Assembly (NCBI RefSeq): GCF_027942865.1
Contig: NC_134517.1
Coordinates: forward strand, 18,110,009-18,174,008
DNA: 64,000 nt
From: Odontesthes bonariensis
Lineage: Eukaryota > Chordata > Actinopteri > Atheriniformes > Atherinopsidae
Direction: 5' to 3'
This document shows positions 5,248-61,506 of this stretch, in pieces. The notes beneath the pieces are model-generated. The model saw only the letters and a program-made list of their open reading frames with translations. It was not told the DNA's origin and made no database searches. Within the stretch, counting starts at the first letter, position 1. Each line of letters starts with the position of its first letter. Position numbers and translations under genes: made by a program.

Positions 5248-8047
<2,800 letters not shown>

Positions 8048-25560: not shown

Positions 25561-26894
25561 GTACCTGTCACACATTCAGGCGGACGCTGAATTCAAATAA
25601 CCTTTTCCCTCTGGATTTCTTCCCTGTCTTAGATTCGCGCAAAGCCAAAGATAGATTACAATAAAGTGATGTTATACAACTCATAACTAGTGAAAAATCC
25701 TGTTTGCACGCATGGCATTGGCATTAAAAAAACAGAATTTCTATTGAATTGGTATGCGTTAAGAGAAAAGTCTGACAAAACTTTAATCTGCAAAAATAAC
25801 CTGACACCTTGACTTCTTTGAATCATTACTATGGAAACCAACTACCCTTTTCATATGTCTCGGAATTACGTTTATTTCCTTTGTAATCATATGCTAAATT
25901 ACATTTCTATTAAGGCAAATTCCAGGCAAGGTTCCATTTTTTTTACGTTGTATTGATAGAAAACAATTGACAATTTTTTAAAAACAAGCCTGTATTTTCT
26001 TGATTTAACAACAGCTTCTGTATCTCTTATTACACAGTGTGATACACAACTTTATGTATGACTCTTTGGACCACTCGTGTTTTTGCCTGAAAATGGTTTA
26101 CCTTGCTTTGTATTGCTTTCACTTAAAAGCAATAAAAACCTATAATCTATTTTTTCCTCATAAAAAGAAGAAGAAATAAACAAAGTGAGGGGTGCACTTT
26201 ATTCTGAACAAACGCAAAGTTTGAACATTTTATTATTTGCATTTCTTTAGTGTTAATATTTACTCCAGAATATAAACGAGAAGGAACCCAGGTAATCTAG
26301 ATTAATCTTTCAGACTATCCCCTATCATCCGCTGGGAATTGTTTGACTCTAAATGCAGTCATTTAATTGTTATAAGGGCTGTTTTGCTGGTGTGCGATTA
26401 GCTCTATGGCAAACAGAGAGGTCACAGATGCAGCTTTTGGTGTGAAAATATAGGGCTGAAAATGTTTTTGAAGTTCTTAGTATTTCCTGAGTTTTTGACA
26501 TCTTGTAGCTTCCCATGGACAAAACACATATTGCCAAAGAGGGAACAACACTCTCTTTCCAGCAAATAGCTGAGTAACCAGCTATCTTTCATTATGTTGC
26601 CATTTAAGACAGATTGGACATTCACCAGCAGTTGTGACTGATCAGACCCTCACCAAGCACAGCTCGCATCACCTGTTTTCATTCAAAGCCTGCTTCAATT
26701 TCCTTTGTTGTACAATTTATTTCCATGACTAATCTGTCTTTCATCAAAGGTTTGTTGGGATAAACTGATCACTTGAAATCAGTGATGAGACGATAAAACC
26801 CTCTTCCTCTATTTGATTAAGATTACATGCTCAATATAGATGGTAATGTGATATCTTCAGGGCTCAATATACACTGCTTTTCCTCCCCCCACAG
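25561..26894 (+). other. Intron 1 of the grpr-like gene
   Basis: GT donor at 25561 and AG acceptor (ccccacag) at 26893-26894. No further feature is seen. Confidence 0.8.
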
Positions 26895-27246
26895 GTACAA
26901 AGCTATCGTCAAACCACTGGACATCCACAGGTCGAGTGCCACACTCAGCATCAGTTTACGTGCGGGGGCGATCTGGCTGCTGTCTGGGACTCTAGCCATT
27001 CCCGAAGCCGTCTTCTCTGACCTGCACACCTTCACCACCAGCCAGACCAATGAGACCTTTGTGACCTGTGCGCCTTACCCCCATGCTGGGGATCTGCATC
27101 CAAAGATCCACTCCACCGCCTCCTTCCTCATCTTCTACATCATCCCGCTCCTCATCATCTCTGTTTACTACTGCTTCATCGCTCGCAGTCTGGTCAGGAG
27201 CTCTGCAGACATCCCCGCTGAAGGACAACTGCACCTCCACAAACAG
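26895..27246 (+). CDS. grpr: grpr-like bombesin receptor, exon 2 (TM4-TM5)
   Basis: Exon 2 is 352 nt, the length I recall for the corresponding mammalian GRPR exon. It begins by completing DRYKAIVKP and encodes TM4 ([20 protein letters not shown]), the second extracellular loop with a glycosylation site (NETF) and the disulfide cysteine in TCAPYPH, the conserved DLHPKIHS, and TM5 ([18 protein letters not shown]), then the start of loop 3 ([12 protein letters not shown]). The Pro of LHPKIHS, another GRPR affinity determinant, is present. The exon ends at CAC AAA CAG with donor gtgcgg. Confidence 0.9.
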
Positions 27247-39969: not shown

Positions 39970-39983
39970 TTCCCCGTTTTATT

Positions 39984-42900: not shown

Positions 42901-45900
42901 TAGTGACATCCACCTATAGCGCCACCTGCTGGTGGTTGGAAATGTCTTTTTTTTTCCACACCTCGCATTTGATCGAACTCCTCCTACATATTTAATGCAA
43001 AAACCTTCAAACTTGGCCAGGTTGCTCTTAAGACATGGGCCGAAAAAATCATTGGCCAACTTTTTCAAAACTTAAAGGGCGTGGCCGTGGCGACACCTCA
43101 AATTTATGACGTGCCATAAAAAATTAAGTCGCTTTTAACTCCCACATACATTATCCAATCTGTCCCAAACTTCATACGGTGAATGCTGGACACAGCCTGA
43201 ACGTGCACATACAAAAAAGTGATATCCACCTACAGCGCCACCTAATGGTGGTCGGAAACTTCATTTTTTTTCCACACCTCTTATTTGATCAAACTCCTCC
43301 TACATATTTCATGCTAAAATCTTCAAACTTGGCCAGGTTACTCTTAAGACATGAGGGCAAAACTCCATGGAGAAACTTTTCCAAACTCTGAACGGTGTGG
43401 GCGTGGCCAGAGGTGAAAATCGTGTGATGGCGTTTGTAATATGAAAGCCTTATCATCATCGTAAAGTCATGAAACTTGGTACACACGTCCACCCTGATGA
43501 CCTCGTACGTATGTGAAGGGTATTGTGTGTGGGCGGAGCAAAATGGCTCAGTGGCGCCCCCTAGAAATTTTCAAAAACCCCTATGCATTGGGGTTATTGC
43601 GTGCTCGTACGTACGCAATGGAAATCGTGCGCGTGGGCAGAGCTGCGCGACTACGGCGTCCAGCGCATGCCCAACGTGCGCACATCCCAACGTACGCACA
43701 CTCGGTCCCGCTCACAGCTGCTTGCAGCTTTCTAGTTATTATTATTATTATTCTTATTCTTTGCAAAAGGTATGCGAAAACTCAGGAAATTTTGCGAGCG
43801 CCACGTGCTAGTCGACGACATGAAAGAATCTAAACATTATATCTTTGGGAGTTGCTCATTGGCTCTGTAGCGCCCCCTACGATGCTTAAAAATGGTGCCC
43901 GCAATGGGGTTAGTTTCGCGTAGGACAATGAAATTCGGTACACTCATTCACCATGCCCAGACGCACAAAAAAGTCTCTTGCCGCCATGGTCCCACGTACA
44001 CAGGAAGGCGGCCATTTTGGATGGAAAGTGCGTTTTCGTGCCATTTTTGGCCGATTCCACGCCTTGCTTAAGATCGAACTTGTCCTACAGATTTAATGCT
44101 ACAGACTTCAAACTTGGCCAGGTTACTCTTAAGACATGGGGGGGGGAATTCATGGAGAAACTTTTTCAAAACTTAAAGGGCGTGGGCGTGGCAACTCCTC
44201 AAAGTTCGATGACTCGCCATCACTCGCCACAAAAAATGAAGTCGCTTATAACTCCCACATACATTATCCAATCTGTCCCAAACTTCATACGGTGAATGCT
44301 GGACCTAGCTTGAACGCATACATATTATCATAACGACATCCACCTATAGCGCCACCTGCTGGTGGTCGGAAACATCTCTTTTTTTCCACATCTCGCATTT
44401 GATCGAACTCGTCCTACAGATTTAATGCTACAAGCTTGAAACTTGGCCAGATTACTCTTAAGACATGGGGGGAAAGAGTCATGGAGAAACTTTTTCAAAC
44501 CTCAAAGGGCGTGGCCGTGGCGACGCCTCAAAGTTATGACTCGCCATGAAGAATTAAGTCGCTTATAACTTCCACACTCATTATCCAATCTGTCCCAAAC
44601 TTCACACGGTGAATGCTGGACTCAGCCTGAACGCGTACATATTATCATAGTGACATCCTCCTATAGCGCCACCTGCTGGTGGTCGGAAATGTCATTTTTT
44701 GCCACACCTCACATTTTATAAAACTCCTCCTACAGATTTAATGCTACAAGCTTCAAACTTAGCCAGGTTACTCTTAAGACATGGGGGCAAATATTCATGG
44801 AGAAACTTTTCCAAACTCTGAACAATTCGGGCGTGGTCAGGCGGTGAAAAACGTGTGATGGTGTTTGTGATTTGAAAGCCTTATCATCATCACAACGTCA
44901 TAAAACTTGGCACACACGTCCATCCTGAACACCTCGTACGTATGTGAAGGGTATCGTGTGTGGGCGGAGCAAAGTGGCTCAGTGGCGCCCCCTAGGGTAC
45001 TTAAAAATGGTCCACACATTGGGGTTAGTTTTGCGTGGGACGACGAAATTCGGTACACTCATTCATCATGCCCAGACGCACAAAAAAGTCTCATGCCGCC
45101 ATGGTCCCACGTCCACAGGAAGTCGGCCATTTTGGATGGAAAGTGCGTTTTCGTGCCATTTTTGACCGATTCTACACCTTGTATAAGATCGAACTTGTCC
45201 TACAGATTTAATGCTACAGACTTCAAACTTGGCCAGGCTACTCTTAAGACATGGGGGGAAAAATTCATGGAGAAACTTTTTCAAACCTCAAAGGGCGTGG
45301 GCGTGGCGACGCCTCAAAGTTCTATGACTCGCCATCACTCGCCACAACAAATTAAGTTGCTTATAACTCCCACATACATTATCCAATCTGTCCCAAACTT
45401 CATACGGTGAATGCTGGACCCAGCCTGAACGCGTACATATTATCATAGTGACATCCACCTATAGCGCCACCTGCTGGTGGTTGGAAATGTCTTTTTTTTT
45501 TCCACACCTCGCATTTGATCGAACTCCTCCTACATATTTAATGCAAAAACCTTCAAACTTGGCCAGGTTGCTCTTAAGACATGGGCCGAAAAAATCATTG
45601 GCCAACTTTTTCAAAACTTAAAGGGCGTGGCCGTGGCGACACCTCAAATTTATGACGTGCCATAAAAAATTAAGTCGCTTATAACTCCCACATACATTAT
45701 CCAATCTGTCCCACACTTCATACGGTGAATGCTGGACCCAGCCTGAACGCGTACATATAAAATAGTGATATCCACCTACAGCGCCACCTAATGGTGGTCG
45801 GAAACTTCATTTTTTTCCACACCTCTTATTTGATCAAACTCCTCCTACATATTTCATGCTCAAATCTTCAAACTTGGCCAGGTTACTCTTAAGACACGAG

Positions 45901-46130
45901 AGCAAAACTTCATGGATAAACTTTTTCAAACCTCAAACGGCGTGGCCGTGGCGACGCCTCAAATTTATGACTCGCCATGAAAAATTAAGTCGCTTATAAC
46001 TTCCACATACATTATCCAATCTGTCCCAAACTTCACACGGTGAATGCTGGTCCCAGCCTGAACGCGCACATATAACAGTGACATCCACCTACAGCGCCAC
46101 CTGCTGGTGGTCGGAAACGTCAAATTTTTT
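39984..46130 (+). repeat. Higher-order tandem repeat array, Helitron-like 3' ends
   Basis: The basic subunit is ~316 bp, recognisable by ccaatctgtcccaaacttca (40618, 40936, 41735, 42840, 43157, 44268, 44586, 45386, 45703, 46017). The larger period is ~3650 bp: 40.1-41.83 kb recurs at 43.75-45.48 kb almost unchanged. The second large copy lacks ~1.1 kb, consistent with exchange between subunits. Units end in cagctgcttgcagct, a hairpin, followed by ttCTAGtt (42288-42315, 43709-43737), and the next unit starts with an (ATT)n run and tctttgcaaaagg. The array opens with two copies of a 52-bp motif containing agggaccgagcagtgaaact. The open frames inside are not protein genes. Confidence 0.8.
40699..46107 (-). 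promoter_or_regulatory. Array of CTCF-core-like motifs
   Basis: The string gcgccacctgctgg, whose reverse complement CCAGCAGGTGGCGC fits the vertebrate CTCF core CCASYAGRKGGCRS at every position, occurs at 40699, 41016, 41814, 42919, 44349, 44666, 45464 and 46094 here, and at 62364 and 63780 in the second array. All lie in the same orientation. Some subunits have lost it (cacctaatggtgg near 43240 and 45785). Binding is an inference from motif match only. Confidence 0.45.
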
Positions 46131-47118
46131 TAAACGACTCGCATTTTAGCCACACATGATATGTTGAATAGCCTTCAAGAAGTCCTCGCCAATCCTTCGC
46201 CACTAAACAGGAACTGACAGTTACTCAATTTTTTCCATTTTATTTATTAACAAGACAGTGCATATTAATAACAGTACATCTGTAACATGCCAAAATTTCT
46301 ATCTTTAGTCCTGGTGAACAGTTTTACATTTGCACCCTAAAAAAAATATATAAATAAAATGTTAAACAATAAAATCAACAATTAAGAACTCCTGTCTGGA
46401 AGGTGACACATCACTTCAATTTCAAACACATTCCACTCATAATGTTGTGGAGTGAACGCCATTTGGGAGATTCGTCAAATACTCTGCCTCGTGCTCGGGT
46501 GCAGGAAAGGCGTGACACAATTGATGACGCCACTGGAGCGGCAGTGTTGGCCCTTTTGCAGTCAAAAGGTCGTAGCGTTGTTCAGCAGCGACACTTTCTG
46601 TGTGTCATAACAGACCAGAATTAATCACATCGACACCAACAAAAATCCTACAAGAATTTCTATTATGCTCATGTTTCTCATAACTTCTTTACATTGGCAC
46701 AAAACATCTTTGAACGCACACTTTGCCAGTCCAGAGTTTAAAGGTTTTCTACTTGTCATCAAAATTTGTTCAAACTTGTCAGCACAAATCAGCAGGGCAA
46801 CACAGGGATTTGAACCCCGTCCCACAAGTGGGAGTACCAATACCATTGCCTTTTGCTTTTTTTAATGCTATATGACAAGGTAAAGCAAAACTTGCATTAA
46901 GAACAGCATGCTAATTTCTGTATGTTAACTTATATTAATAGCCGTTTATCACTACTTTCAAATATATTTCTGTGGAAGTTAAATAAATGCCGTCTTAATG
47001 CAAGAAACGAAACCTTTACACAATAAAGACTTTTGTTTACTGTTAAATAGAACACAAATTTTATGCAAATTTCAAAACATAGGTAATTAAAGCGCTTAGC
47101 ATTCTCACAAGCACTTCG
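46131..47118. other. Non-coding interval between the array and the Helentron
   Basis: A part near 46250-46330 looks like a dispersed fish repeat. At 46795-46855 (minus), GGGGTTCAAATCCC resembles a tRNA T-arm / B box, but a full cloverleaf is not evident. No gene is supported. Confidence 0.5.
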
Positions 47119-47421
47119 CTAATGCGCCACCTCCGGGACAGGCGGAAGGGCCACTATGAGTTCCTGCAAGGTTGCAGCCTCACGGTCTGCATCCTCGCCC
47201 GTCTTAGTCTCTGCCTTCGTCTTCAGTCCTGACTTACTGAGCGGCAGCTCCTTCCGTGCACAGAAGTATGCATCGGGATGCTTCCTCCTGATGTGAAGTG
47301 AGAGCCCCCTTTGGGACAGGAAAGAGACGGGGCAGGTCACACAGGCAAATCGTGGCGGAGAATCCCCCTCTTGCCTGTGAGCTGTCACATCGTTCAACTT
47401 TTTGGGATTCAGAATTGTCAT
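47119..47421 (-). pseudogene. C2H2 zinc-finger fragment of a possible R2/NeSL-type LINE
   Basis: A 100-codon frame contains FACVTCPVSFLSQRGLSLHI and RRKHPDAY, one C2H2 finger (C-x2-C-x12-H-x4-H). The RGLSLHIRRKHP wording is typical of the N-terminal fingers of R2/NeSL-clade retrotransposon proteins. The remainder is Lys/Glu-rich and ends at TAG. No RT follows on this strand, so it is either a truncated LINE or an unrelated small zinc-finger protein. Confidence 0.45.
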
Positions 47422-48074
47422 TTTTTAAACCTTGTAACATATACAGAAAACAAACTTCATTTAAAATAAAAACTAATAGTTATATAAATAACATGTACAA
47501 AAATACTCTTCTCCCCCCAATATACTCTCATCTGTACTTAAAAAAAAACTACATAATAATTATTTCATTAAAAACTACATCAGCTTAAAACCACACTCCG
47601 GTGTTGTTCGTTTATGTGCTGTGTGCAATGGAGTTGTTAAGCTCCTTGAGAATGTTTGTGGATTTTTATGTACAGTGTGCAATGGTAGGCCGAGGCCACC
47701 TTGTATTTCAGTGCTATCTGTTGACTGTCCCTGTTTTGGTGTTGTTGCTGTAAACCCTGACACTATCACTCTTTGTAGTTATTCAAAAATGTTAAGTAAT
47801 CCCTCATGATCACTACAATAAATTCATTCAAATGTTTAAACAGGAAGTACATGTTACAATTGATTACAAACACAAAATACATTATTATATAAACATTGAC
47901 AATATATATACACATGTGCCTTTAATAATGATACATAATTATTTCGTGTACACACATACATAAGAAATACAAGTGCCAAACCTTTACAACAAAATCATGC
48001 CATGTCCAAATTTACAACATCACCCTGGCCTCACACATGTAGAAATGGGTAAAGTACTTGTCTGAACTCACACA

Positions 48075-51000
48075 TTACCAGCAACGAAACACTATTGCCT
48101 CATGATCACTAAAATATGTGGGCACCACCGAAGCCTCTACATTATACTGAGTGGTTTTTACATATACGTGATCAATGAGCGTCCCTCTCTCTGTTGTGGG
48201 TTCTGTCACTAACTGGACATACCCTCTACTTGTAAGAAACTGGGAGATTGTTGATGATTTCAAAATGTCATCATTGAAATCTCCCATGACAGCAACTGTG
48301 TTACTCAGTGAATTAAGCCAAACAACCAACTGCCCTAGATTTTCCTTAAACAAAGAGATGGGATAAGATGGTGGTCGATAAACGACTGCCAGAACTACGT
48401 TGTAAGTAGCAAACCTACACACTACACATTCCAAATTGACACGTGGGACATCTAAAATGTCACATTCCACACTGTCAGCGGCATACACGCCAACTCCACC
48501 ATGTTGTTGGTCTTGAAGTGCGAGCAAGGCAGGATGGCTGCTACTGTAGGATAAACTTCGTGGACAGTTGTGAAAAGTGAACCCAGAAATCTTAGTTGTC
48601 TCTGATGAGAAGGCTGCAGGCAGCCACGTTTCTGTGACAGCAATGCAGTTAGGCTTCAAGGGCTGTGCACACAATGCCAAATCCACTACATGTCTACTCA
48701 AACTTTGCACATTCATTGAAAACACAGTGAAACTGTTTTGGCTCAATGTGTGCCGAGGTATAGCGCCTGTCACAAAAGGAACCATACTGTTAATGGCATC
48801 CTTAACATCTTCCCTGCAATATATGCGCTTCTCTTCAAACTCCTGAATGATTAACCCTGAAAGAGTCCTAACACGACTTAATGCCACATATGCTTGGCCA
48901 GAGGAAAATATCTTTGCCAAATTAACTACAGCATTATCAACAGTTAGGCCTTGTACTTTGTGGACTGTACAGGCCCACGCTAGTTTCAGTGGGAATTGCC
49001 GCCGCAATCCACCGTTTTTGGTGGCTCTGTCTTCTTCAGGTTCAATACCTATAGAGCCTTGCAAAGGTAATGCCAAGTTAGGGCACTGCTTTCTCCTCTG
49101 TTGTCCAACCAAATCGTCATCAAATTTAACATAGACTTTGAGTGGAAACTTGCTCTTTTCTGACATATGCACTTCAGTAACTACACCACAGACACCATTG
49201 ACAAGGCCATCTGCCACATCAACATTTTTACACAGCATTACACGCGCATCCTTCCCTAAGAACAGCGTCTCTGCCAAACAGGTGTTTTGTGCTTTGGCAT
49301 GATGGCCATCTAACAACCTCAGTTGTCCTGTTTTCGCATCATTAATGAAATCCTGCGCATTTACTTCTACGTATTCAGGACAAGCCTTTAATAGCTGTTG
49401 CATGTTATGCTCATTTACTTGTCTATTAGTTGCAAATATGTGCAAGGCAGAGCTTTCCTCAGCAGTTTCACAGCGTCTCAACACATCCAAATCACTTTTC
49501 AACATCGGAGTCTTTTTGCTACGACACCTAACCCGATTCAACAACTCAGCAAAGACTTTGTCTTTCTGTCTAACTATTTCAGTTAGCTCAACAACTTTAA
49601 ACAAGCTTGACCACAAGGTGTTACTAACGTCCTCCACATACAACGGCTTGCCTCTTACAGGCGGCAACTGGAAAAAATCTCCTACTGCAACTACAGCAAC
49701 ATTGCCAAACGGTGAAAAATCACCCGTTTGTTTTATCTGTCTCAATCTACCGTGAATATATGAGAACAGATTGTGATCCACCATGGATATCTCATCTATT
49801 ATCAACAGCTGCAGATCACAATATTTGGCACGCAACGAGTTCAGTTTCTCCTCCCCCAAAGGAGTGTACGGTAAGCGTACATCCTTTCCTATACCAAATG
49901 TTGAATGGATTGTTGCCGCCTGCAAATTGAATGCAGCAATCCCTGTAGGAGCCATCAACAACACACATATGTTGTCTGGATGACGGCACGTCGGTGACAA
50001 CAGCCTCATTGATTCGTACTGAATCGCCTTTATCAAATGACTCTTGCCAGTACCTGCACCGCCTGTAATAAATACATGCAACGGTGCAAGAGTTTTGCCA
50101 TGTATCCTATCTAAACACCATTGCCTCACCTGATAAAAAACAGACATCTGGGTGTCATTTAGAGATCTAACTAAAGCCAAACCATCACTTCTACACATGA
50201 CATTACTTCTCTTCTCTACATTTCTTGACTCTACACTTCCGGACTGCAAATCTGGAATATCTTCAACATCCTCTACCAGTATCTGTTGCTGCTCTCCTCT
50301 TTCCTCCAGACACTCTAAACGTTCTAGCTCCTGCTCTGGACATAGCTCACACCATGCATTTTCCACTAGTCCATCACAATCGATATTATTCCTAATATCA
50401 TCTAAATCTTCTGCTTCTCTCTCAAAAATTCTGCCATTTTCATCAACGACCACCTGCACCGAACGTCTAGAACCATCACTAAACCTAACATGCCCATTAC
50501 TGTAAAACTGTTCAAAGGTTTCACAGTTTGCAGGTTTCAGTTGTTCATCACATCTATAGGGCAGGAACAGTTGCAATTTACTGCGGAAAAAGTTTTCCGA
50601 GTTCTTGGTTTTTGAAAACCGCGCATACCGAATGACAGCTGGTTGTGTGCGTGTTCTTTTGACTATAAAACCACACCGATTCTGTAACTGGATTGGATTC
50701 CGACATTTTTCATTTTTACTCAATATGCGATATTCTGATGCAAATGTTGCCAAACACATGTCTTCAAATGCCACATCTATTGGCCTACTCTTATAGCGGT
50801 CAACTAAACTAGTCATCCACATATTTTGAGATGTGACATCCTCTGATGCAGCCCTCTGTCTTAAAATACTCAACGGTAAACTCATCCTCACAATATTATC
50901 CCCTGTGGGCACAAAGACGACTTTCCTTGAACATTCCTTTAAGTGCATATTTGTTAGTCTATAAACTGCTTCTTGTGCGCTAACATCTCTGTTATGCAAG

Positions 51001-54000
51001 TACACAGTACCTAGATTTTTTAAGGCCTCCTTTGCACTAAGATTGCCCTCTTTGGATGCCTCTCTTTGGGCATTGCTCAACAGCAGCCCCATCTCCCTTT
51101 CTGCCTTAGAAATATAGGAGATGATGTACACAACACATGCATACGCATCCACAACGTACTGGATGTCTATATTAGCATTCCAGCATTTCAAGAGGGACGT
51201 ATTATACTGATTAATCCACGACTCCTTAACATCCCTTTTTAAAATAACTTCTGTCTTCTTGCCAAGACGTTTATACGCCGCCTCAAAAATCTCCTGATTC
51301 ATGCGTAAAGCACCAAACAACTGCTGTACATTTTCACAACTACCATCGTTCAATGCCTTCTTAACGCTTGTTAAAATGTCATCAGCATGCTCTTTCTTCA
51401 TCTCCCACCTGTTCTCTCCATGCTTTTCACATGTTGCATCCGTCACATTTTCCTGACACTTGCAGACTGGTTCTACTCGCTTACGACTAATAAACGTGCG
51501 TGCAGATACTGGTCGAGGAAAATTGAAACGACATGTTGTATTCCTCTTTTTGCACGACTTTGAGTGTCGAGTGGAATGTTGTTGTACAGATGTGATAATG
51601 TCCAATAATGTGTCATCATCTGCTGGTAGTTCACATGTTACATATTTGTCAATAAACTGAACTACCTCTTCGTCACTGTTCCTGTCAATTAACGGAGCGT
51701 TCTCGATCCAGAACAAACAATGAACATGTGGGGAACCACGCTGCTGAAACTCGACCCTATAAAAGTAGTCAATTATTTTACCTATCGGATTGCATGGAGA
51801 CATCAACACCTCCTTTAAAAAACAATGCCACCGAAAGTCAAACATCCTGGCTGCAGTTACCGGATTCTGCCGCAACAGCTCACACCTATCAGCCCACTCC
51901 AACTCGTCAGCTGTCTGTGTTCTTCCAGCCTGTCGCAAAGCGCTATCAAGCAGATTTTGCCAACGAAGATCAGCTGAAGAAAAGGAACAAAACCAAGTAG
52001 GGACACCTAACTGACGAACACAAGCTAACAGGTCATTCTGCGCTCCCTGCCAGTACACTGGGGTTCCTCTAATAGGTTTCAAAAACCGATAGCCATCATC
52101 ACACGCCAACAACCGTTTCAACCCATCGTCACTCTTCAATAGATTGTTAACCTTTGTCAGTGTGCCACCTCCCCTTCCTTTTCTTAACGCTATGGACACA
52201 TTGGAAACGACGTGTTCGACCTCCGACATGTACTGAGCAAAAAATATGTATTCTACATTCCGGGAAAATCTGCCATCAGCATGCAGAACACGGTTATTAA
52301 AATAACGCGTTAATGTCAAACGCTGTGGTCGGCTATCATGATAGGTATGCTGTCCCTGCGGAAACAACACTGGAAAACATTTGGCTTCATTGCCATGATC
52401 AGACAGCAAGCTAACAGGGCTGTTTCCCTCTGCAGGAGCCACGTTCACAACACCATCAAAATACTGGTCCAACACTTCTTGACCAATGTCTACAGGCATC
52501 AGACAACTGTCCTGAAACATACAGTGTTGCTGTCTGTCATGTAGAAGTTCATCCTCGCCACCATCACTGGCTTCTACATTACAATCATTGTCTGCTCCTA
52601 AAATTACCTCATCGTTCTCCCTACAAAACTCATTAAGCCATGCTTCATTAAACTGTATATCTTTATAATGTGCATTAATGTTTTTTAAACACTGCAACGC
52701 TTGCCTAACACGCATGGTATCCACAAATTCATACTTGTAATGACCCTTGTAGGTTAACTTACGCTTCAGCTTCACAGGCAACAAAGACCCCTCCATATTG
52801 GAACGAGGTAACAAATTACTTGTTTGAACAATGTTTGCTGGAACACATGTCACTGGGCCATGTACTCCATTTTGCCCACCTTTGGGCAAAGCTAACATCT
52901 TCATAAATGGTATATGTAGCGCGATCAAATGCTGTTCTAAACTATTCAAACAGGCCAGTTCTGCTGGAATGTGAGACACAGTCAAATTGTTCCCTGCAGA
53001 TTCAGCCGGTTCCTGTCCTCTAAGTATTTTACTATGACAGGTGTAACAGATCGAAAGCTTTCCTCTGGGTGATTCAACCAAGTGACACGGCATCTCACAA
53101 CTGGCATCACATTTGTGCAGATAATCATCAGTAATACACTTTGCGGCTACAGCAGCTACAGCTCCAGTTTTATTATAATCTTCCCTTTTACAGGTTAAAA
53201 CCTGATGCCTAAACAGCAACCTGTGGCAAACACAACACACAAAATCTGGTCCATCTCTGACTTTATCTAAAAACTGCTGCATAACAAAGTCAAATTGCTG
53301 CCGCTTTTCTTTCAACTGCTGCCTCTTCAGCTTCATACCTGCTACAACACGCCGTTTATATTCAACATTTGCATACTTTGTCTTACTCATGTTCCTCACC
53401 TTCTTCCTATGTACCTTGTTTGTACGATATTTATTTTTACTCATTACTTTCAAGTTTTCTTTATGTACTACATTTGTACGATATTTATTTTTACTCATTA
53501 CTTTCACATTTTCTTTATGTACTACATTTGTACGATATTTATTTTTACTCATTACTTTCACATTTTCTTTATGTACTACATTTGTACGATATTTATTTTT
53601 ACTCATCGCCTTCAAGTTCTCTCTATGTACCACATATGTCCTGTACTTCCATATACTAATCTCTTTCTTCTTGGCTTGATACAATACATTAGTCCTGTAC
53701 ATGTTCCTACTCAATTCCTTCACACTCTCTCTCTGTAACCTATATGTCAATTTACTCATAGCCTTATGCTTTTCCTTATACAAACTATTTTGAGCATAAT
53801 TTCTTTTACTTCTTTCCTTCTGGCTTTCCTTCCTCCAAAGCTTTCCTGTATATGTAAACACACTTTGTCTTGCCTGTTCTGCAGGTTGCTCGTTAAATAC
53901 ATACGGTGTTTGCTGTCTTAAATTGTATCCATCACATGTCTGCACTTTACAATAACCATAACATGCCTGTGTTTCAGCCTGTTGAACACAAACTACGTTT

Positions 54001-55424
54001 TCATAATGGTTACCATTGCAATTCTTTACATAAACTGCCTGTTTGGAGAATTGATGGTTGTGACAACTATATTCAAGCCAACGCTCATTGTGATATGTGA
54101 AAATACTTACACCTAAACAGTCTGCTGCAGCTTGAATCTCGACCTCTGTAGCCCAACTGCCAACATAACGCATCCTTGACACCACCAGGTATTCTGCCAT
54201 TGAGGAATCTGGATTTCTCAAAATACCTTGATATGCCACAGGATTGCTTTCCATCTGCTTGACAACGGCAAGCCTAATCTTCCGATGATTCTTCTGTGTG
54301 CCACTAATGGCCTGACTAACTGCCCTAAAGAAACAGTTTCCATCACCAACTATTTCCTCTGTCCTGCATGGAGCCCCTAACACACCAACTGTACCAGATG
54401 CTACATGACTAATCTCAGACTCTATATTTAATCGCTTGCATAGGGAGTCTGCATCACCTTTACACAATGGATTAAATTCTAAGCATTTACTTCCAACATC
54501 GCTAACAAAAACTACATCTAAATTAACACTAGTAACATCACTTCCTGAGTTCCTGTCAATGACACGCACACCGACAAGTTCAAACAACTTAGGAGAAACA
54601 TTAAGTGCTTCTGTAAACTTGCACAAATGGCAGAACAGATGCTCAAGATCATTAAAATACACAACTACACTCGTCCCTTCACCATCTACCATCCCATCTG
54701 AACTGCGTGCATGCGAGTCAACCACTGCATACTGTCCACTCTGACGAATGATGGCACATGTACCACCACACAATGTCAGAAGACAGGTGTCATATTTCCT
54801 ACATATTTCTGTCAACCCTGTTCTAAGACTGATAAGCACCCCTGTTGCAATTAATTCACTCTCTCCAGCAGCATCTCCAGTTACATAATCACCATACTCA
54901 AACTCAAACTTCTGTCCATCTATAACACGCTGCTTGGGCAAATCTGGAACAGAAAGCATATCTGCCCCACTACTAATCTGATCACAGTCACGCAAATCTG
55001 AATACAACGCATCACCTAAAACTACAACCTTATCCAGTGTAGCCGCTTGCCACAAAAACACACTGTCAGTTGTGTGTTTTGCTACAGCTACCAAACTTAT
55101 AGCCATACACTGCAATCCAGCATTTATAAACCGACTATCACCCTGGTGAAAATTTCCCTGAACTGATGTACGCCCACTGACAAATGTACTACCAACTAAC
55201 TCGTCAGACAGTGGAACACCCTGTGAAGGCAAGCATGAACTGGACTTAACACTCAAACCTTTGGTGAATCTTTGAGAGCGCCGCACACCAACACCTCTGT
55301 CCTCCTGGTTCTCCACCACCTCCACAGAGCAGACAGGCACCGGAACAGGACGAGCAGAGACCTCAACAGGACTGGTGGGCAGCGGCACGTCACAGGCACA
55401 CACAAGGCTAGTTGTGGCCTCCAC
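48075..55424 (-). CDS. Helentron giant exon: OTU, Lys-rich repeats, Rep, helicase, endonuclease (2449 codons)
   Basis: It begins with GTG after the acceptor tcctag, not a true start. Domains in order, counted from there: OTU-like cysteine protease ([11 protein letters not shown] about 358, GNHYENVV about 475); 18-residue repeats [18 protein letters not shown] (about 575-665); Cys-rich zinc segment [12 protein letters not shown] (about 728); Helitron N-domain [16 protein letters not shown] (about 1030); HUH motif [11 protein letters not shown] (about 1230) and catalytic-Tyr region [10 protein letters not shown] (about 1435); PIF1 helicase Walker [11 protein letters not shown] (about 1787), Walker [10 protein letters not shown] (about 1878), [13 protein letters not shown] (about 2155); APE endonuclease [30 protein letters not shown] and SDHE at the C-terminus. 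The C-terminal endonuclease marks it as a Helentron rather than a canonical Helitron. Confidence 0.93.
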   Translation of the reverse strand: MEATTSLVCACDVPLPTSPVEVSARPVPVPVCSVEVVENQEDRGVGVRRSQRFTKGLSVKSSSCLPSQGVPLSDELVGSTFVSGRTSVQGNFHQGDSRFINAGLQCMAISLVAVAKHTTDSVFLWQAATLDKVVVLGDALYSDLRDCDQISSGADMLSVPDLPKQRVIDGQKFEFEYGDYVTGDAAGESELIATGVLISLRTGLTEICRKYDTCLLTLCGGTCAIIRQSGQYAVVDSHARSSDGMVDGEGTSVVVYFNDLEHLFCHLCKFTEALNVSPKLFELVGVRVIDRNSGSDVTSVNLDVVFVSDVGSKCLEFNPLCKGDADSLCKRLNIESEISHVASGTVGVLGAPCRTEEIVGDGNCFFRAVSQAISGTQKNHRKIRLAVVKQMESNPVAYQGILRNPDSSMAEYLVVSRMRYVGSWATEVEIQAAADCLGVSIFTYHNERWLEYSCHNHQFSKQAVYVKNCNGNHYENVVCVQQAETQACYGYCKVQTCDGYNLRQQTPYVFNEQPAEQARQSVFTYTGKLWRKESQKERSKRNYAQNSLYKEKHKAMSKLTYRLQRESVKELSRNMYRTNVLYQAKKKEISIWKYRTYVVHRENLKAMSKNKYRTNVVHKENVKVMSKNKYRTNVVHKENVKVMSKNKYRTNVVHKENLKVMSKNKYRTNKVHRKKVRNMSKTKYANVEYKRRVVAGMKLKRQQLKEKRQQFDFVMQQFLDKVRDGPDFVCCVCHRLLFRHQVLTCKREDYNKTGAVAAVAAKCITDDYLHKCDASCEMPCHLVESPRGKLSICYTCHSKILRGQEPAESAGNNLTVSHIPAELACLNSLEQHLIALHIPFMKMLALPKGGQNGVHGPVTCVPANIVQTSNLLPRSNMEGSLLPVKLKRKLTYKGHYKYEFVDTMRVRQALQCLKNINAHYKDIQFNEAWLNEFCRENDEVILGADNDCNVEASDGGEDELLHDRQQHCMFQDSCLMPVDIGQEVLDQYFDGVVNVAPAEGNSPVSLLSDHGNEAKCFPVLFPQGQHTYHDSRPQRLTLTRYFNNRVLHADGRFSRNVEYIFFAQYMSEVEHVVSNVSIALRKGRGGGTLTKVNNLLKSDDGLKRLLACDDGYRFLKPIRGTPVYWQGAQNDLLACVRQLGVPTWFCSFSSADLRWQNLLDSALRQAGRTQTADELEWADRCELLRQNPVTAARMFDFRWHCFLKEVLMSPCNPIGKIIDYFYRVEFQQRGSPHVHCLFWIENAPLIDRNSDEEVVQFIDKYVTCELPADDDTLLDIITSVQQHSTRHSKSCKKRNTTCRFNFPRPVSARTFISRKRVEPVCKCQENVTDATCEKHGENRWEMKKEHADDILTSVKKALNDGSCENVQQLFGALRMNQEIFEAAYKRLGKKTEVILKRDVKESWINQYNTSLLKCWNANIDIQYVVDAYACVVYIISYISKAEREMGLLLSNAQREASKEGNLSAKEALKNLGTVYLHNRDVSAQEAVYRLTNMHLKECSRKVVFVPTGDNIVRMSLPLSILRQRAASEDVTSQNMWMTSLVDRYKSRPIDVAFEDMCLATFASEYRILSKNEKCRNPIQLQNRCGFIVKRTRTQPAVIRYARFSKTKNSENFFRSKLQLFLPYRCDEQLKPANCETFEQFYSNGHVRFSDGSRRSVQVVVDENGRIFEREAEDLDDIRNNIDCDGLVENAWCELCPEQELERLECLEERGEQQQILVEDVEDIPDLQSGSVESRNVEKRSNVMCRSDGLALVRSLNDTQMSVFYQVRQWCLDRIHGKTLAPLHVFITGGAGTGKSHLIKAIQYESMRLLSPTCRHPDNICVLLMAPTGIAAFNLQAATIHSTFGIGKDVRLPYTPLGEEKLNSLRAKYCDLQLLIIDEISMVDHNLFSYIHGRLRQIKQTGDFSPFGNVAVVAVGDFFQLPPVRGKPLYVEDVSNTLWSSLFKVVELTEIVRQKDKVFAELLNRVRCRSKKTPMLKSDLDVLRRCETAEESSALHIFATNRQVNEHNMQQLLKACPEYVEVNAQDFINDAKTGQLRLLDGHHAKAQNTCLAETLFLGKDARVMLCKNVDVADGLVNGVCGVVTEVHMSEKSKFPLKVYVKFDDDLVGQQRRKQCPNLALPLQGSIGIEPEEDRATKNGGLRRQFPLKLAWACTVHKVQGLTVDNAVVNLAKIFSSGQAYVALSRVRTLSGLIIQEFEEKRIYCREDVKDAINSMVPFVTGAIPRHTLSQNSFTVFSMNVQSLSRHVVDLALCAQPLKPNCIAVTETWLPAAFSSETTKISGFTFHNCPRSLSYSSSHPALLALQDQQHGGVGVYAADSVECDILDVPRVNLECVVCRFATYNVVLAVVYRPPSYPISLFKENLGQLVVWLNSLSNTVAVMGDFNDDILKSSTISQFLTSRGYVQLVTEPTTERGTLIDHVYVKTTQYNVEASVVPTYFSDHEAIVFRCW

Positions 55425-55611
55425 CTAGGACAAAAATAAATAAACATAAAGGACAACAAAACAACCTTATAAGCAACATGAAAGACTCGTATTTTGCTAA
55501 ATTGCTCATTTAACAATATCCCTCTTTTTTTTTTTAACTACATACCCAATGACAATAATTCCCTTTGCATGGCTACTTTAAAAATAACAAAAAAAATAAA
55601 ATAAAAATAAC

Positions 55612-55644
<33 letters not shown>

Positions 55645-58271
55645 GTTGTACCGACCTCTTGGTCCAGGACCCCAGCTTCTGGACGAGCAGACACCGCAAT
55701 TGGTGTGGCATCGACCTAAAGAGAGTAAAAACAATTAAATAATGTCAGAACCACAATACATAAAGAAAAACCTTTTGTGTACTTTTCACTTTTTTGTCAC
55801 AATGGTTTAACACAGTTTCTCTGAAAGTCAAATGATATTTAACTGACACAAAATATAACCTCACATACTGCAAGCCAAAATAATTTCCCTAAATTCAGGA
55901 GAAACCATTCAAACAAATTGAACCAACCTTCTCCAGCGCCTCCACTTTCATGCCTTCAACAGACACCTCTGCACCTGGTGTGGCCAACACCTACAAAAAT
56001 ACATGACATGAATACACAAATGCTAAATATTTCCCTCCTGCTCTCCAACTAAAAATGCACCACATATGCTGTTCAAATGAATTCAATCATTACATACCTT
56101 ACGCCTAACTTGTCTGCGTTTCAATACAGCCGTTTTTCTCCGGTGTTCCACAGGCAGCGTCTAATGTGAGACAAACACAATTGCGTTTTAAAATATTTGT
56201 GCAATAGATTTGTGTACACAATACACACAGTCTCAAGGATGAGGGAGAAGAAGTCATTTTACAATAATGCTTAATCCATCACACACAATTTAAAAGCAAT
56301 GTACCTCTTTACTTGTAGGAACATCACAATCAAGTGATGATGGAACCACCTTCTCCATGGCAGCCAATATATCAGTGGAGAACCGCACAGGATTCAGTGG
56401 AATGAAACACTCCCTCAAAACCACTGGAGTTCCATCCACCTGTACAATGTAGACAAAATTAGTTCAGATCAACATTGCATACTCATCTTAGTTAAATATA
56501 AATAAAACATAATCATAGCAAACCTTGTATTGAGCCTTTCTCCTCTTGGATGCACCAGAAGCATGAGCCTGAGCCAGCTCAGGCTCACCAGAACGGTTCC
56601 TCTGTAAAGACAAATAGCACATGAATATAAGAACAGTTTCACCATAGCTTTGATGTTCTCTTTAACAACAATAGCACTTTTCTCAAATATGAATTTAAAA
56701 AAAATACATAGCAAACCTCATGTTCAGGCGTTCTCTTGGGTGCACCAGAAGCAACTTCAGGGTCACCAGAAGGGTTCCGCTGTAAAGACAAAAAGCACAT
56801 GAATATAAGAACCATTTCACCATAGCTTTGATGTTCTCTTTAACAACAATAGCACTTTTCAATTAAAATATAATAACTGTCAACCTTCTTACCTTCCTAC
56901 CCGATCCTACAACCGGCCACTCAGAGGCAGGTAGAGCATTCCGCGGCACTGATGTCAAAGCAGACACCGAGTGAGGTACCTGTGGTTGAGGAACCGGTAT
57001 CTCCAGTTGATGGTAAGCAGCAATCCACATCAGCTGCACAAGGAGCGGCATCCCGAAGTCGTCGCTGAGGTGCACCTGTGAAAAAACAAAGCAAAAAAAC
57101 AAATGTCAAAAAATAATGAAACATTTAATATTAAGTTTCAAATTACATTAAATATTTTTCCATTTCTTATACCAAAACAACAACCCAACAGCTACTTACC
57201 CCATCACGGCACCACAACTTCAGACAGTTGACAGGGAAATAGTCAGCTGTGTTCCAAAACTTCACACCTTAACACAAATTAAACAATGTTAATTTATAAC
57301 TATTTACACAATAAAACATAATCCATCGTACACCCTTTTTAAAACATACCAAGCTCTGATGCCACACGGTGGAATTCGTCTCTCATCAGCTTTTGGTATT
57401 CAAAGTCCACGGTCAAGCGTGGAGGCATGTCCACAACAAAAACCTAGACAAATGAAATAGGGATTCATTATCAATTGTATTATCTGCATAATGCCACACC
57501 ATTAAAATAGATACACTGTCATTACAATAAACAGGATACAAATGAAATTAATATACCTTTGTCCAGTATGTACAGACAGTGGAAAGGAACTCTTTGAAGG
57601 AGGCAGCCGCCTCATCAACCGTCCTGCTGCTTGTTAGGTTGTTGCTAGGGGCCAAGATGCACACGGCGTCAGGCTTCCGAGGAAGAGCAGCGTGCAACAC
57701 TTCAGTCCTCAGCTGGTCAGCACTGGCCCCCGGCGTTGACATCACACCAAAGGACAGGCAGCCCTCTGGCATCTGAACAATGCCGTCTGCGATGGAACGC
57801 AGGTGGGAGTCCCCGACAAGAAGCACGAACTGGAACAAAAGCAAAGATTCCTTTAGAATAAGATCAAATAATAATTCCACAAAATAACTCTGTTGTATAT
57901 AAATTGTACATACCTTCTTGTCTGGAAACTCAGCAGGGACGACCAATTTGTGACTTCGCCCAGTGTGCAAAGAAATTTGCCATCGTTTCACTTTATGGCG
58001 CCAGCCGGTACCACAAGCTATTTATCAACAGACACAAAAAGCAACATAAACATTTACTAGTCATATTAGCCGCAAATAATATCATTACACACTTTACTAT
58101 TACAAAAATAACCCAAATGTTATCTCAAATATTGCAAATATGGAGAAACAGATAATGATAATACATACATGCACGAAACTTGCTGGAAGCCATCCGGATT
58201 CCCACAGACTCAGTTGATCTGCAAGCATTCCTCTTCTTCAACGCCTCACGATGACTCTTGCCACGCGGCAT
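48075..58271 (-). CDS. Spliced 13-exon Helentron gene: SGNH hydrolase + OTU + HUH Rep + PIF1 helicase + APE endonuclease, ~2878 aa
   Basis: I infer one gene with exons (minus) 58271-58169, 58017-57914, 57829-57557, 57443-57350, 57267-57200, 57075-56893, 56779-56717, 56601-56524, 56439-56305, 56160-56098, 55990-55928, 55715-55656 and 55424-48075. Every boundary has an AG acceptor and GT donor, and the phases fit without a single break (coding sum 8637 nt). The start is the ATG at 58271, directly after an acceptor (ccacatctag), so a non-coding exon should precede it. The product would combine an N-terminal hydrolase with the complete rolling-circle transposition machinery. There is no stop or frameshift, so it may be active. 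The exon model is read by eye, without transcripts. Confidence 0.78.
53430..53720 (-). repeat. 54-bp coding tandem repeat in the Helentron
   Basis: Six to seven units of 18 codons ([18 protein letters not shown] and variants) follow one another, three of them nearly identical at the DNA level. The matching region of the copy at 8.5 kb has about four units with a different consensus (VTYQAKKKEMSRIM). Confidence 0.85.
55610..55640 (+). repeat. Poly-A run of about 28 bases
   Basis: A long A tract lies in the intron between exons 12 and 13 of the Helentron gene (poly-T in its transcript direction, upstream of an acceptor). Confidence 0.9.
55656..56779 (-). CDS. Helentron gene exons 7-12: small phase-0 linker exons
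   Basis: Six short exons (63, 78, 135, 63, 63 and 60 nt), all multiples of three and all phase 0, encode a low-complexity linker. Exons 7 and 8 both open with RNPSG or RNRSG followed by EPE-like and GA-KR segments and are clearly duplicates. Exons 11, 12 and 13 open with VLATP, VDATP and VEATT. Exon 9 holds [20 protein letters not shown], the least simple part. Exon 10 is Arg/Lys-rich ([17 protein letters not shown]), a possible nuclear localisation signal. Because all are phase 0, exon skipping would keep the frame. Confidence 0.65.
56524..56860 (-). repeat. Tandem duplication of an exon plus intron, ~178 bp
   Basis: Exon 8 and exon 7 start at 56601 and 56779, 178 bases apart. Their upstream introns share a long nearly identical stretch (agcacatgaatataagaac, caccatagctttgatgttct), so both exon and intron were copied recently. 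Confidence 0.85.
56893..58271 (-). CDS. Helentron gene exons 1-6: SGNH/GDSL-type hydrolase domain
   Basis: Spliced, the six exons (103, 104, 273, 94, 68, 183 nt) encode ~275 residues. Exon 1 is basic ([15 protein letters not shown]). Exon 3 has [13 protein letters not shown], the GDS block with the nucleophile Ser, and [14 protein letters not shown], the Asn block. Exons 5-6 join to give [13 protein letters not shown], the Asp-x-x-His block. Thus Ser, Asn, Asp and His of an SGNH hydrolase are all in place. The exon 4 part includes [19 protein letters not shown]. Splicing is required to form the active-site DGVH. The role may be lipid or ester hydrolysis, or a protein-binding fold. Esterase domains are known from CR1/L2 LINE ORF1 proteins. 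Confidence 0.7.
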
Positions 58272-59576
58272 CTAGATGTGGATTAAAACAATGAATTAAC
58301 ATCATTACATAACACTATGCTCACCAGAAGGAAAACAAATACAGCCACCATCAGCTGAACACTATTAAAATGTTCCTATATTTCCAATTAATGTTTTCAT
58401 TATCAATACACATTGATATTCACTGTATTCAATTTCACATTATAAATACTACCTTTAAAAACCATAAAAACTATGTACCAAAGTTTTAAACTTGTTCAAA
58501 AAAAAAAAAAAGTTAAATTCTCATTAATACACATTATCAACTACTTTGGCATAATCCTACATTAGCGTTTTTTGACACTGAATAAAATAAATGGAACACC
58601 ATCATTTTGCATATTATAACTAACACGTCAACTTCCTAAACGGTCAAAACAGTGTAACCAACATTTGACGAACCATTTTGTTCATCTGTGTAAGAAAATC
58701 ATATTACAGGAAACAATATCACAATGAAGGACCCATGATTAGCCCAACTGTTACATGCAAAAGTTAATAACTCTTTGAATTCTTCATAATTTGACATTAT
58801 TAGGGTATAACCGTAGGAACCATTTATAACTTATAATAACTGTAAAAATAATTATCCTAGTTATTTAAAAATCTTAACATCAAGGACATGTACTTGAATA
58901 GCTGTCCATCATAATGCCTGTTAAATTTGAATTTAAATTGAAAAGGAGTAAAATGGCCATATTCTGCATTTTCACAAATCAGAAAAACGTTTCACGAATC
59001 CCAAACAAAGTTTTAATAAATCTACAGCGTCTATATAATAATTCTATCCAAATTTGAGCAGTCTAACTAGTGTAGTTTTCCATACAGGACCTAGCCCCCC
59101 CCCCTTCTCTTCTCCCCCCCTCCCCTACCTCCCGGTTAAACTCAGCATTTGAGAAAATGGCGAACAACTTGTGCCTCTAAAGTTCCTTTGTGCTTACTGC
59201 ACAAACGCCATGCACAGCGGCGCTTTCTCCTTGATGCCGTTTCTTTATTTTCGACGCCTTATAAACTAGAGTAATATCGTCATTTCCGACATCCTCTACA
59301 CGACCCCGGGAAAAATTCAAACCCAAGCAGAACAAAGACACATACACCACGTGTTTCACCGTCTACAAACACGTTCAATTTGACTTTCAACCGAGTTATC
59401 TCGGGATCTTAATGTAATTGCGAGTAATAAGATAGCATCAAATTCCTTGGAATTTATACATTAACTTAATAACTCACTGTTATTGTAATTTAGACAATAA
59501 TAACGTCCTTTCCGTGCAATGTAACCATACAATTCCACCGTGTTACACTACAGTAAAAAACAACACAGATTTACTC
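58272..59576 (-). other. 5' intron of the Helentron gene, AT-rich
   Basis: Between the first coding exon and the candidate non-coding exons no other exon is seen. A C-rich run lies at 59095-59125. Confidence 0.45.
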
Positions 59577-59760
59577 ACCTCAAGGCCAAATAAATTCCTT
59601 TTGAATCCTTCTTGATAATGTAAAAATGTGGTATAGTTCGGTCTCTATCTAATTACGTACAAAGTGATTATTCTCGGATCTGAATAAGTTTTCACTAACA
59701 CAGACGTCTCGAACAATCACGCCAAAAAAGAGCTTACCTGCGTTTATATTGACACATATC
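59577..59760 (-). other. Candidate non-coding first exon(s) of the Helentron gene
   Basis: Two strong donors read minus: CCTTGAG|gtgagt with the last exon base at 59579, and AACGCAG|gtaagc with the last exon base at 59738. Either could splice to the acceptor directly before the ATG at 58271. They may be alternative first exons or alternative donors. Confidence 0.45.
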
Positions 59761-59762
59761 CG

Positions 59763-59952
59763 CCAATCACAACACAGCAGGAGACAGCCAATCAGCGTGA
59801 TATACGGGTGCTTAATCCCGCCCCTGACAACAATGACTCTTACTGCGCATGCTCCATAGATGGCAAAACACGGAAGTAAACCGGAAAAAAAATCGCCTCA
59901 CATTTCAGATTGGCTGCTGAACACGTCGCACAATATAGTACATTACGATTGG
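59763..59952. promoter_or_regulatory. Candidate TATA-less promoter with CCAAT, ETS, NRF1-like and GC-box sites
   Basis: Two CCAAT boxes on plus (59763-59767, 59788-59792) and two on minus (59909-59913, 59948-59952, read as attgg), a cccgcccc GC box at about 59818, TGCGCATGC (59844-59852, NRF1-like), CGGAAGT (59871-59877, ETS) and a CCGGAA (59881) are packed within 190 bases. This is the makeup of vertebrate housekeeping promoters, often bidirectional. It sits just upstream of the candidate first-exon donors. Confidence 0.5.
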
Positions 59953-60161
59953 CTGTACCTGCCACCATGTTAGGTAGGTCCCTCATGTTGCCATTTTACT
60001 GGACACGTTAAGAAAATAAAAATATATATTTATTTTATGTATTTATGGTAAAATAATGGGTGATTAAAACCAAAAGTTTATCATGTAAAATCATAATAGA
60101 AAGAGAAATTACTTTATTTAGTTAAAATGGATTAACTGGACCAACTAGTAATTTTACTAAA

Positions 60162-60700
60162 CAGTGTTTCCCAACCGGGGCTCTGCGTACCCCTAGTGGT
60201 ACGCGGAGGTACTGCAGGGGGAGAGCTTTTTCTTTTTTTTATTAAGGCATCACACTTTTATGGAGGACTGTTTATGAAGGAGACTCCAGTTTTGTGATGA
60301 ATGTTACATGAGTTAGGCCTGCTAATGTATTCTTAAAAAGAGAGAAATGAGTTATGTTCATGTATTCTTAAAAAAATTGAGAAATGTTTCTTATTTCAGT
60401 TAGATAACAAAACAAGACTATTTTGATTTAGTATTTATACTATTTTGGTTAATTATTTATATTTCAAGAAAATGTTTTTTATTCTTATGTTGAATTCAAC
60501 TGAGGTTAAGAAAAAATATAGAGAAAGCCAGAGAATTTTATGTTCAAGTTAAGGATTAAATAAAATGATTTTCATGTAATAACCACTGTGTTGCTCAACT
60601 TTTTGAGAATCATTGCACGCGTTGTATGTGTGAGGGGGTACTTGTGGTGTGACAAGAAGGCTCAGGGGGTACTCAGGCCAAAAAAGGTTGGGAAACACTG
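60162..60700. mobile_element. hAT-type MITE, 539 bp
   Basis: It begins CAGTGTTTCCCAACC and ends GGTTGGGAAACACTG, perfect 15-bp inverted ends of a kind known from hAT elements. The 8-bp flanks (ttactaaa and gattaaag) are only partly alike, so the target duplication is eroded. No transposase is present. Confidence 0.78.
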
Positions 60701-61079
60701 GATTAAAGGACCTGTAAACAAACTTTAGCCAAATAGACAGTTTTTAATCGCATTATTACAATGGCAGGTTATCACTGTCACAGACAGTTTAAATAGCTGC
60801 ATGGCTAACAATGCTGTGAATGTGTTAATGTAGGAATAAATAAATTCCTAATAAATAAATCCTTGAATCCAATATATAAGCTTGTATGTATGTCTGTCTG
60901 TAAGTTAGAGAGAAATAAAATCAAATGATCAATCAAACTTCTTTCTTGATAAAAAGATAACATTTATATTTAAATTCATTTATATACTTATCAATATGCC
61001 ATAGCCTAACATATATCTTTGTTAAAAAGCACAATACAAAGTCTTTCAGCATGAAAGCACACATTTTTCATTTTATTCA
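60701..61079. other. Non-coding interval
   Basis: No gene is seen. Confidence 0.5.
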
Positions 61080-61500
61080 ATGCAATTCGATTCATTTTTA
61101 TTTTTATTTGCGCCGAATACAAAAAACAGCTTTCTCATCTCAAAGCACTTAAATAATAAAGTCCAATTCAAACCAATTGGAATTCAATTATTTGTAATCA
61201 TAATTATTTTGAAAATAATCCAATTCATTCATACAGAGCCAATTCAAAAACAATTTCCTAGCTAAGGAAACCAACAGATTGCACAGAAACTTGTCTTCAG
61301 TCCAATCTCCCGTCCTGAGCGTGCCTGAGGCGACTGTGGAGATAAACGACTCCCTTTTTACAGGCAGAAACCTCTGGCAGAACCAGAACCAGGAAGGGCT
61401 GCCATCCGCTTCCACCAACTGGGGTTTAAGAGGACAGGAAAGAGGGGAAAAAACCACCGTAACACCATTCAAAGGATACCTGTTGGAAAAGGGAAACACG
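61080..61500 (+). repeat. Teleost interspersed repeat of unknown class
   Basis: The order of phrases (tcaatgcaattcgattcatt, then ggaaaccaacagattgcac, then tttttacaggcagaaacctc) matches a repeat I know from many fish genomes, but I cannot name its class. It abuts the second array. Confidence 0.45.
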
Positions 61501-61506
61501 AGTTAA

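Follow-up and report, generated by a model that had tools for sequence, protein, structure and literature searches.

Spliced genes encoding SGNH hydrolases, named texim, were published in 2014 as genes captured by Helitrons in fish (Tomaszkiewicz et al., PMC4021074), with structures backed by ESTs, RT-PCR and RACE and with a Helitron situated in the last intron of teximY/1 (PMC4021074). The gene examined here lies in a window of 64,000 nucleotides from the fish Odontesthes bonariensis (C17:18110009-18174008; the genome searched comprises 945 Mb) and resembles platyfish texim and teximY, likened by description: these too are multi-exon SGNH genes, patchily present in fish and tied to a Helitron whose coding region lies inside the last intron or begins 3 kb downstream, but they were interpreted as host genes that had been captured and end in a stop of their own, and the available text describes no in-frame join to the Helitron (PMC4021074). 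Zebrafish VTD-containing Helentrons share with the window gene an AP-type endonuclease, a tegument-type deubiquitinase (VTD), whose activity was measured in zebrafish, and partly an OTU domain; unlike the window gene, they are presented in a main text without mention of SGNH, GDSL, esterase or intron, as far as it is available (PMC9741609). The Helentrons of Thomas et al. 2014 likewise combine Rep/helicase with a C-terminal endonuclease, OTU being reported for the group, whereas their mite ORFs are intronless and SGNH is unmentioned in the available part of that paper (PMC4067079), in contrast to the spliced, SGNH-bearing window gene. An accessory esterase domain is also found in mobile elements such as CR1/L2 LINEs (SGNH) and rotifer Terminons (GDSL); these are, however, retroelements, and in the available text their esterase is not spliced to a rolling-circle transposase (PMC4021074, PMC6431247). 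What is already known is therefore the link of texim with Helitrons (2014), VTD and OTU in Helentrons (2022, PMC9741609) and uncharacterised fused models in databases. The open-access literature searched has no paper pairing "Helentron" with "SGNH" and no description of SGNH exons in frame with a Helentron gene with short texim as its splice form, which other papers could have. The claim of a new architecture made in the sequence-only reading of this DNA consequently holds for the in-frame join as far as that literature goes, but not for texim, known since 2014, nor for the single-protein arrangement, models of which are already in databases.

By sequence comparison, the locus is well supported as a spliced SGNH-OTU-Rep-Hel-EN gene of a Helentron. 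We consider it likely that it is one Helentron gene, in which native 5' SGNH exons are in frame with a giant exon and the choice of donor probably gives either a long transposase or a short SGNH protein. Splice reconstruction rebuilt the 13-exon minus-strand gene base for base (58271-48075): 12 of the 12 introns are GT-AG, the phases match, and the spliced ORF of 8637 nt encodes 2878 aa with its only stop at the end, so that the twelve upstream exons proposed earlier, with their phases and total length, came out unchanged. The giant frame of exon 13, 2449 aa when taken alone, had been said to lack a true start and to open behind an acceptor, and the in-frame TAG directly before it is indeed part of that acceptor. 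Reading through an intron leads to a stop or a frame shift in 11 of the 12 introns; the exception is intron 2, which alone could be read through because it has no in-frame stop and its length is divisible by three. Exon 1 opens with an ATG that sits immediately behind an AG acceptor, both in the window gene and in four of five loci of a second Helentron family of this genome (family B) or related to it (L020-L023; none was found in L028), and exon 1 is therefore probably not the first exon. By eye, GCATGCGCAG at 59843-59852 (minus strand) lies upstream of two donor-like sites (Table 1) and is a possible promoter of the window gene; we take it to resemble the vertebrate NRF1 promoter site. Exons 7 and 8 are a tandem duplication with introns that are related too (internal matches 56860-56757 versus 56682-56579), while family B possesses a single such exon. 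Exon 7 together with its intron is tandemly repeated in two copies in the window (56524-56779) and in more copies in the genomic copy C21 and in the database model P0039 (noted at locus L011).

Table 1. Coordinates of the features of the Helentron gene and element, numbered within the 64,000-nucleotide window
Feature	Position	Strand	Basis or remark
Non-satellite part of the Helentron	46149-61752	-	5' end CTAGAAAGCTGCAAGC at 61752; 315-bp satellite arrays beyond the 3' side to about 40.0 kb
Putative ends of 5' untranslated exons, with a donor-like GT after 59738 and another after 59579	59579-59740	-	sequence; AG acceptor before the ATG of exon 1
Coding exon 1	58271-58169	-	starts with ATG; family B exon has the same length
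Coding exon 2	58017-57914	-	rebuilt model, family B comparison
Coding exon 3, SGNH block with GDS and PSNN	57829-57557	-	rebuilt model, family B comparison, homolog alignment
Coding exon 4	57443-57350	-	rebuilt model, family B comparison
Coding exon 5, last codons D and G of DGVH	57267-57200	-	rebuilt model, family B, database-model junctions
Coding exon 6, first codons V and H of DGVH	57075-56893	-	rebuilt model, family B, database-model junctions
Coding exon 7	56779-56717	-	rebuilt model
Coding exon 8	56601-56524	-	rebuilt model
Coding exons 9-12, linker	56439-56305, 56160-56098, 55990-55928, 55715-55656	-	rebuilt model
Giant exon 13: VTD deubiquitinase, OTU, DUF6570, Rep, PIF1 helicase, endonuclease	55424-48075	-	ORF list, Pfam, structure-chain match
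Part of exon 13 retained in the short product; internal donor caccaaag/gtttgag behind 55259	55259-55424	-	P0039, P0040
ATTAAA, possible poly(A) signal of the long product	47921-47926	-	inferred
Alternative last exon, C2H2 zinc finger	47119-47381	-	P0039; weak Pfam finger match

The order of Pfam domains in the giant exon is OTU, DUF6570, Helitron_like_N, PIF1 and Exo_endo_phos. Rep and helicase lie in one ORF (PF14214, E 3.4e-29; PF05970, E 2.9e-26), as is the case in Helentrons, and the endonuclease (PF03372, E 3.4e-9) occupies residues 2237-2441 of the giant ORF. The Pfam search of the spliced product, suggested together with the gene model, thus returned OTU, Helitron_like_N, PIF1 and endonuclease as anticipated, but the GDSL/SGNH match in the small exons (PF13472, E 4e-5) stayed below the curated cut-off with 24.6 against 32.9 bits; precomputed annotation lists PF13472 for 11 of 38 long homologs. 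GDS, PSNN and DGVH, which we take to be the SGNH motifs, can all be read in the spliced protein as had been proposed, with DGVH split across the junction of exons 5 and 6, and the spliced gene has the S, G, N and H blocks by which texim is recognized. Further readable motifs are HVH, GGAGTGKS and DGNCFFRA, presumably those of Rep, helicase and OTU, respectively. Among the 147 homologs with a near-complete SGNH part (158 were fetched), the catalytic S, G, N, D and H are each kept in 143-145, while the D of GDS is replaced by A in 31 and by N in two. The sequence search found no solved structure matching the SGNH part. The earlier domain list, SGNH-OTU-Rep-Hel-EN, was incomplete, as a herpes-tegument-type deubiquitinase (VTD) located between SGNH and OTU had been missed; it matches the solved chain 8add_A (E 5e-10), presumably zebrafish DrT1-VTD2 of PMC9741609, with the VTD Cys and Asp-x-His aligned as GLQC and VDSHAR, and five other structure matches are weak. 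The first Met of the window's giant frame is situated just behind the VTD cysteine, so that a start at an internal ATG would lose this residue. The giant exon of family B has an ATG at its very start, which makes an internal start possible in that family, and the argument from the VTD cysteine fails there.

SGNH and Rep are matched in one predicted protein for 30 of the 38 full-length homologs (P0001-P0027, P0029-P0031), while P0028 and P0032 have an SGNH match without Rep and P0033-P0038 no SGNH. The names shown for the 38 belong to about 20 teleost species, those of the fused 30 being all teleost; O. bonariensis is not among them, its models listed being short ones. Poecilia and Gambusia proteins are found among the homologs at 46-50% identity. 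The fused proteins are uncharacterised database predictions, some of which may be chimeras of neighbouring elements. Two short O. bonariensis models from sister copies were compared with the rebuilt junctions: P0039 spans ten of them, from 3-4 to 12-13, and matches at all ten (10-12 of 12 residues), and P0040 spans all 12 and agrees at ten (8-12 of 12 residues), the exceptions being 6-7 and 7-8. In the genome, C6 (99.9% over 18 kb), C21, C15 and C4 carry the small exons along with the Helentron frame, and in C6, C21, C15 and C3 each of the 12 small exons is bordered by AG and GT; C4 is without most of exon 3, C3 is without a Rep/Hel match and two C19 loci are partial. Family B, studied in detail at L022 and in three more fetched loci (L020, L021, L023), is more distant. 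Exons 1-5 of L022 are exactly 103, 104, 273, 94 and 68 nt long with the same phases as in the window, at 50% SGNH identity, while introns 1-5 align to those of the window at just 26-47%; the frame is open into the giant ORF, one exon replaces the 7/8 pair and there is one extra intron. It could be objected that database proteins are predictions and that the small exons are a product of chance or of gene prediction and not a gene at all. Equal exon lengths at such a protein distance amid diverged introns, selection on the exons, the kept catalytic residues and the platyfish texim cDNAs speak against this, family B refutes its strong form, and we regard it as extremely improbable.

SGNH exons are not present in all Helentrons of this genome. 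From 129 genome matches 51 SGNH exon-3 rows were picked, the SGNH and Helitron_like_N searches scoring the best candidates only; Helitron_like_N was found 5.2-8.7 kb downstream on the same strand for 42 of the 51, and in opposite orientation within 12 kb for none of them. Seen from the other side, and again among the best candidates, Helitron_N loci are paired with SGNH in 37 of 42 cases in family B, four of five in the window family and one of 31 in others and fragments, while pairing was seen in none of 29 in family A and none of 19 in family C (families were grouped by rank and ORF length), and no SGNH exons were found in two fetched loci each of families A and C. Nine SGNH loci are unpaired, and in the three of them that were compared (C3, C19 and C24:32456119) Helentron ORF pieces lie downstream. 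The family C frame, too, begins at an acceptor-like site. In two family A loci, which have no SGNH, the start peptide is MPRKGIRSRAQKLRR..., compared as MPRKGIRSRAQK and close to many texim-type protein starts: 12 of 20 residues are identical to the best of 118 such starts, and three of 5000 shuffles with MPR fixed were as good, in a test devised post hoc, while in an earlier test with MPRK fixed the top of 2000 shuffles was 13. As the start of a family without SGNH resembles that of texim-type proteins, SGNH looks like an optional cassette in the Helentron gene. Short stretches 76-80% similar to window positions 59.5-59.3 kb were also seen upstream of the frames of L024 and L025 (family A), in inverted orientation.

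In P0039 and P0040 the transcript model leaves exon 13 after RSQRFTK at an internal donor, 55 codons inside the exon, and skips the Helentron ORF. The short product computed for the window has 571 aa and a last intron of 7877 nt, and in these gene models (P0039 and the spliced window model) the Helitron coding region is placed in the last intron, as in texim. P0039 continues into a C2H2 zinc finger that lies at 47381-47119, past the Helentron ORF. P0040 reaches the second half of the zinc finger sequence via a different path, and the family B model P0091 exits at the matching place (CSQTR/G) and ends in a different tail, for which the fetched downstream DNA of two family B loci gave no match. 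Of 20 short models with more than 75% identity to a long one in the alignment, P0040 and P0091 exit at the internal donor and the rest end at various places. The zinc finger exon has 47 matching rows at about 40 loci and travels with the element, but it is broken in many family B copies, its Ka/Ks being 0.33-0.66 (six loci), so this tail may be dispensable. The zinc finger as a general end of texim was considered and is unsupported, the intact motif being present in P0039 only of the 158 fetched proteins. A joining of the same exons to another 3' end in an unrelated host gene had been named in advance as a refutation of the long gene; models with such an end exist (P0039, P0040 and, in the family B counterpart, P0091), but these ends look like another product of the same element and not like an unrelated host gene.

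The short models bear on the view of 2014, which sees in texim a separate esterase gene that has a promoter and a 3' end of its own and was caught and carried by Helitrons; the transposase would then come from a different transcript, and the open frame across the join would be incidental. This view is in accordance with the existence of those models, with the absence of SGNH from families A and C, with platyfish texim cDNAs (RT-PCR, RACE) that have the Helitron in the last intron or downstream, and with texim-like genes of amphioxus, sea urchin and Oikopleura that are without a Helitron (PMC4021074). Against it speak a join that can be read through in both families and in 30 of the 38 database proteins, the first Met of the window's giant frame lying behind the VTD cysteine, the Helentron ORF pieces at all three compared unpaired loci and the likeness of the family A start to texim exon 1, and we find it improbable. 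To read the exons purely as a neighbouring gene was considered and set aside, a reading that both the open frame of the two families and the 30 fused proteins weaken.

Exons 1-6 of the window gave Ka/Ks of 0.18, 0.19 and 0.21 against C21, C15 and C4 (Fisher p 1.2e-5, 1.4e-4 and 9.8e-4), three comparisons that are not independent because the window sequence is common to all and C21 and C15 are near copies; against C3 selection was not significant (Ka/Ks 0.63, p 0.22). The SGNH exons are under purifying selection in three of the four copy comparisons. Values for exons 9-12 were 0.43, 0.51, 0.21 and 0.34 and for Rep-Hel 0.19-0.20, and the endonuclease part of C4 reached 2.58 on two synonymous changes; exons 7 and 8 were omitted from these counts because they are duplicated. 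Conservation of exons above that of introns was not seen among the near copies. Synonymous divergence of C21 and C15 from the window is 0.08-0.09 in the SGNH exons, higher than in introns (about 0.03) and than in Rep-Hel (0.004). Our guesses for the excess over introns are CpG decay or mosaic copies. Copies in the genome are mosaics, with a diverged 5' part and a nearly identical 3' part.

SGNH and Rep had been expected to be strictly co-inherited, which the comparisons did not bear out. Across 27 proteins the distance correlation is 0.42 for SGNH-Rep and 0.46 for SGNH-Hel as against 0.97 for Rep-Hel, each above all 2000 permutations, and the trees differ: six proteins whose Rep parts group as one clade, supported at 100/100, are dispersed over the SGNH tree (29 rows) with 4 changes, and they form a single clade there in none of 200 bootstraps. 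A single origin of SGNH in these six is not rejected (AU p 0.077), the starred branches forcing at most one change. SGNH parts 54-60% identical to that of the window occur in proteins whose Rep is near 41%. The simplest reading of these comparisons is that elements may exchange 5' cassettes, with chimeric gene models as the main caveat. An explanation built on this would have the SGNH module recombined between Helentron lineages, functional in some and decaying in others; it is compatible with the one-gene explanation, yet denies SGNH a fixed role in transposition. The scattered Rep clade, the high SGNH identity at low Rep identity and the mosaic copies (against C21, Ks is near 0.08 for the 5' exons and 0.004 for Rep-Hel) are in accordance with it, while the single origin that the AU test does not reject, the correlation, though weak, of SGNH and Rep distances and the possibility that some models are chimeras of neighbouring elements weigh on the other side; we hold it to be a serious possibility, a little short of an even chance.

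The 5' border of the element at 61752 is common to C6, C21 and C15, each with different upstream sequence. Four copies have the same 5' border in a AATAATAA setting, and by eye a GGGACCGAG/CTCGGTCCC pair lies between the end motifs. The 5' end motif recurs at 42279, 43700 and 63143, and hairpin end motifs are present at 39985 and 40037. Arrays of a 315-bp satellite flank the Helentron at 39978-46148 and 61753-64000, with further copies of the 5' end motif inside, an arrangement that looks like a head-to-tail row of short related elements. Other features of the window, all on the plus strand, are a relic of another Helentron copy at 7920-9362, in several frames, with OTU and DUF6570 parts and 54-nt repeats at 8525-8740; an intact-looking LINE ORF at 14363-17629, an open frame of 1088 aa with endonuclease and reverse transcriptase domains; and two open frames of a 7-transmembrane receptor at 25082-27366, the first with Pfam 7tm_1.

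Returning to the reading that we prefer, the one-gene explanation, the 12 small exons (SGNH hydrolase and linker) would be the native 5' part of the transposase gene, spliced in frame to the giant exon, and the long product would be a 2878-aa SGNH-VTD-OTU-DUF6570-Rep-PIF1-endonuclease protein. We infer that RNAs of the window locus differ in donor choice: when the internal donor is skipped, the mRNA would encode the long transposase, and when it is used, the whole Helentron core would be removed as an intron to give a short SGNH protein, as in platyfish texim cDNAs. In the Drosophila P element, whose transposase is unrelated, alternative splicing also sets transposase against a shorter protein, one small intron being kept or removed. 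Compared with this, the window gene would lose nearly the whole transposase core as an intron. The role of SGNH would most likely be an accessory one in the germ line, possibly the cleaving of lipid or acyl esters as proposed for CR1 esterases, and the two deubiquitinases beside it may protect the transposase from degradation. Whether this extends to fish in general we regard as evenly balanced: texim genes would then not stem from the capture of host genes and would represent a short splice form of the Helentron transposase gene, the internal donor would decide, as a switch, whether a germ-line SGNH protein or the complete SGNH-VTD-OTU-Rep-Hel-EN transposase is made, the transposase core serving as the intron, and the SGNH cassette would have been passed between Helentron lineages. 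The analysis suggests that the texim genes known from fish form the first half of a gene that belongs to the transposon and were not captured from a host. On this reading an SGNH enzyme would be one of the domains of the Helentron protein, and RNA data could show how often the splice site identified here is used.
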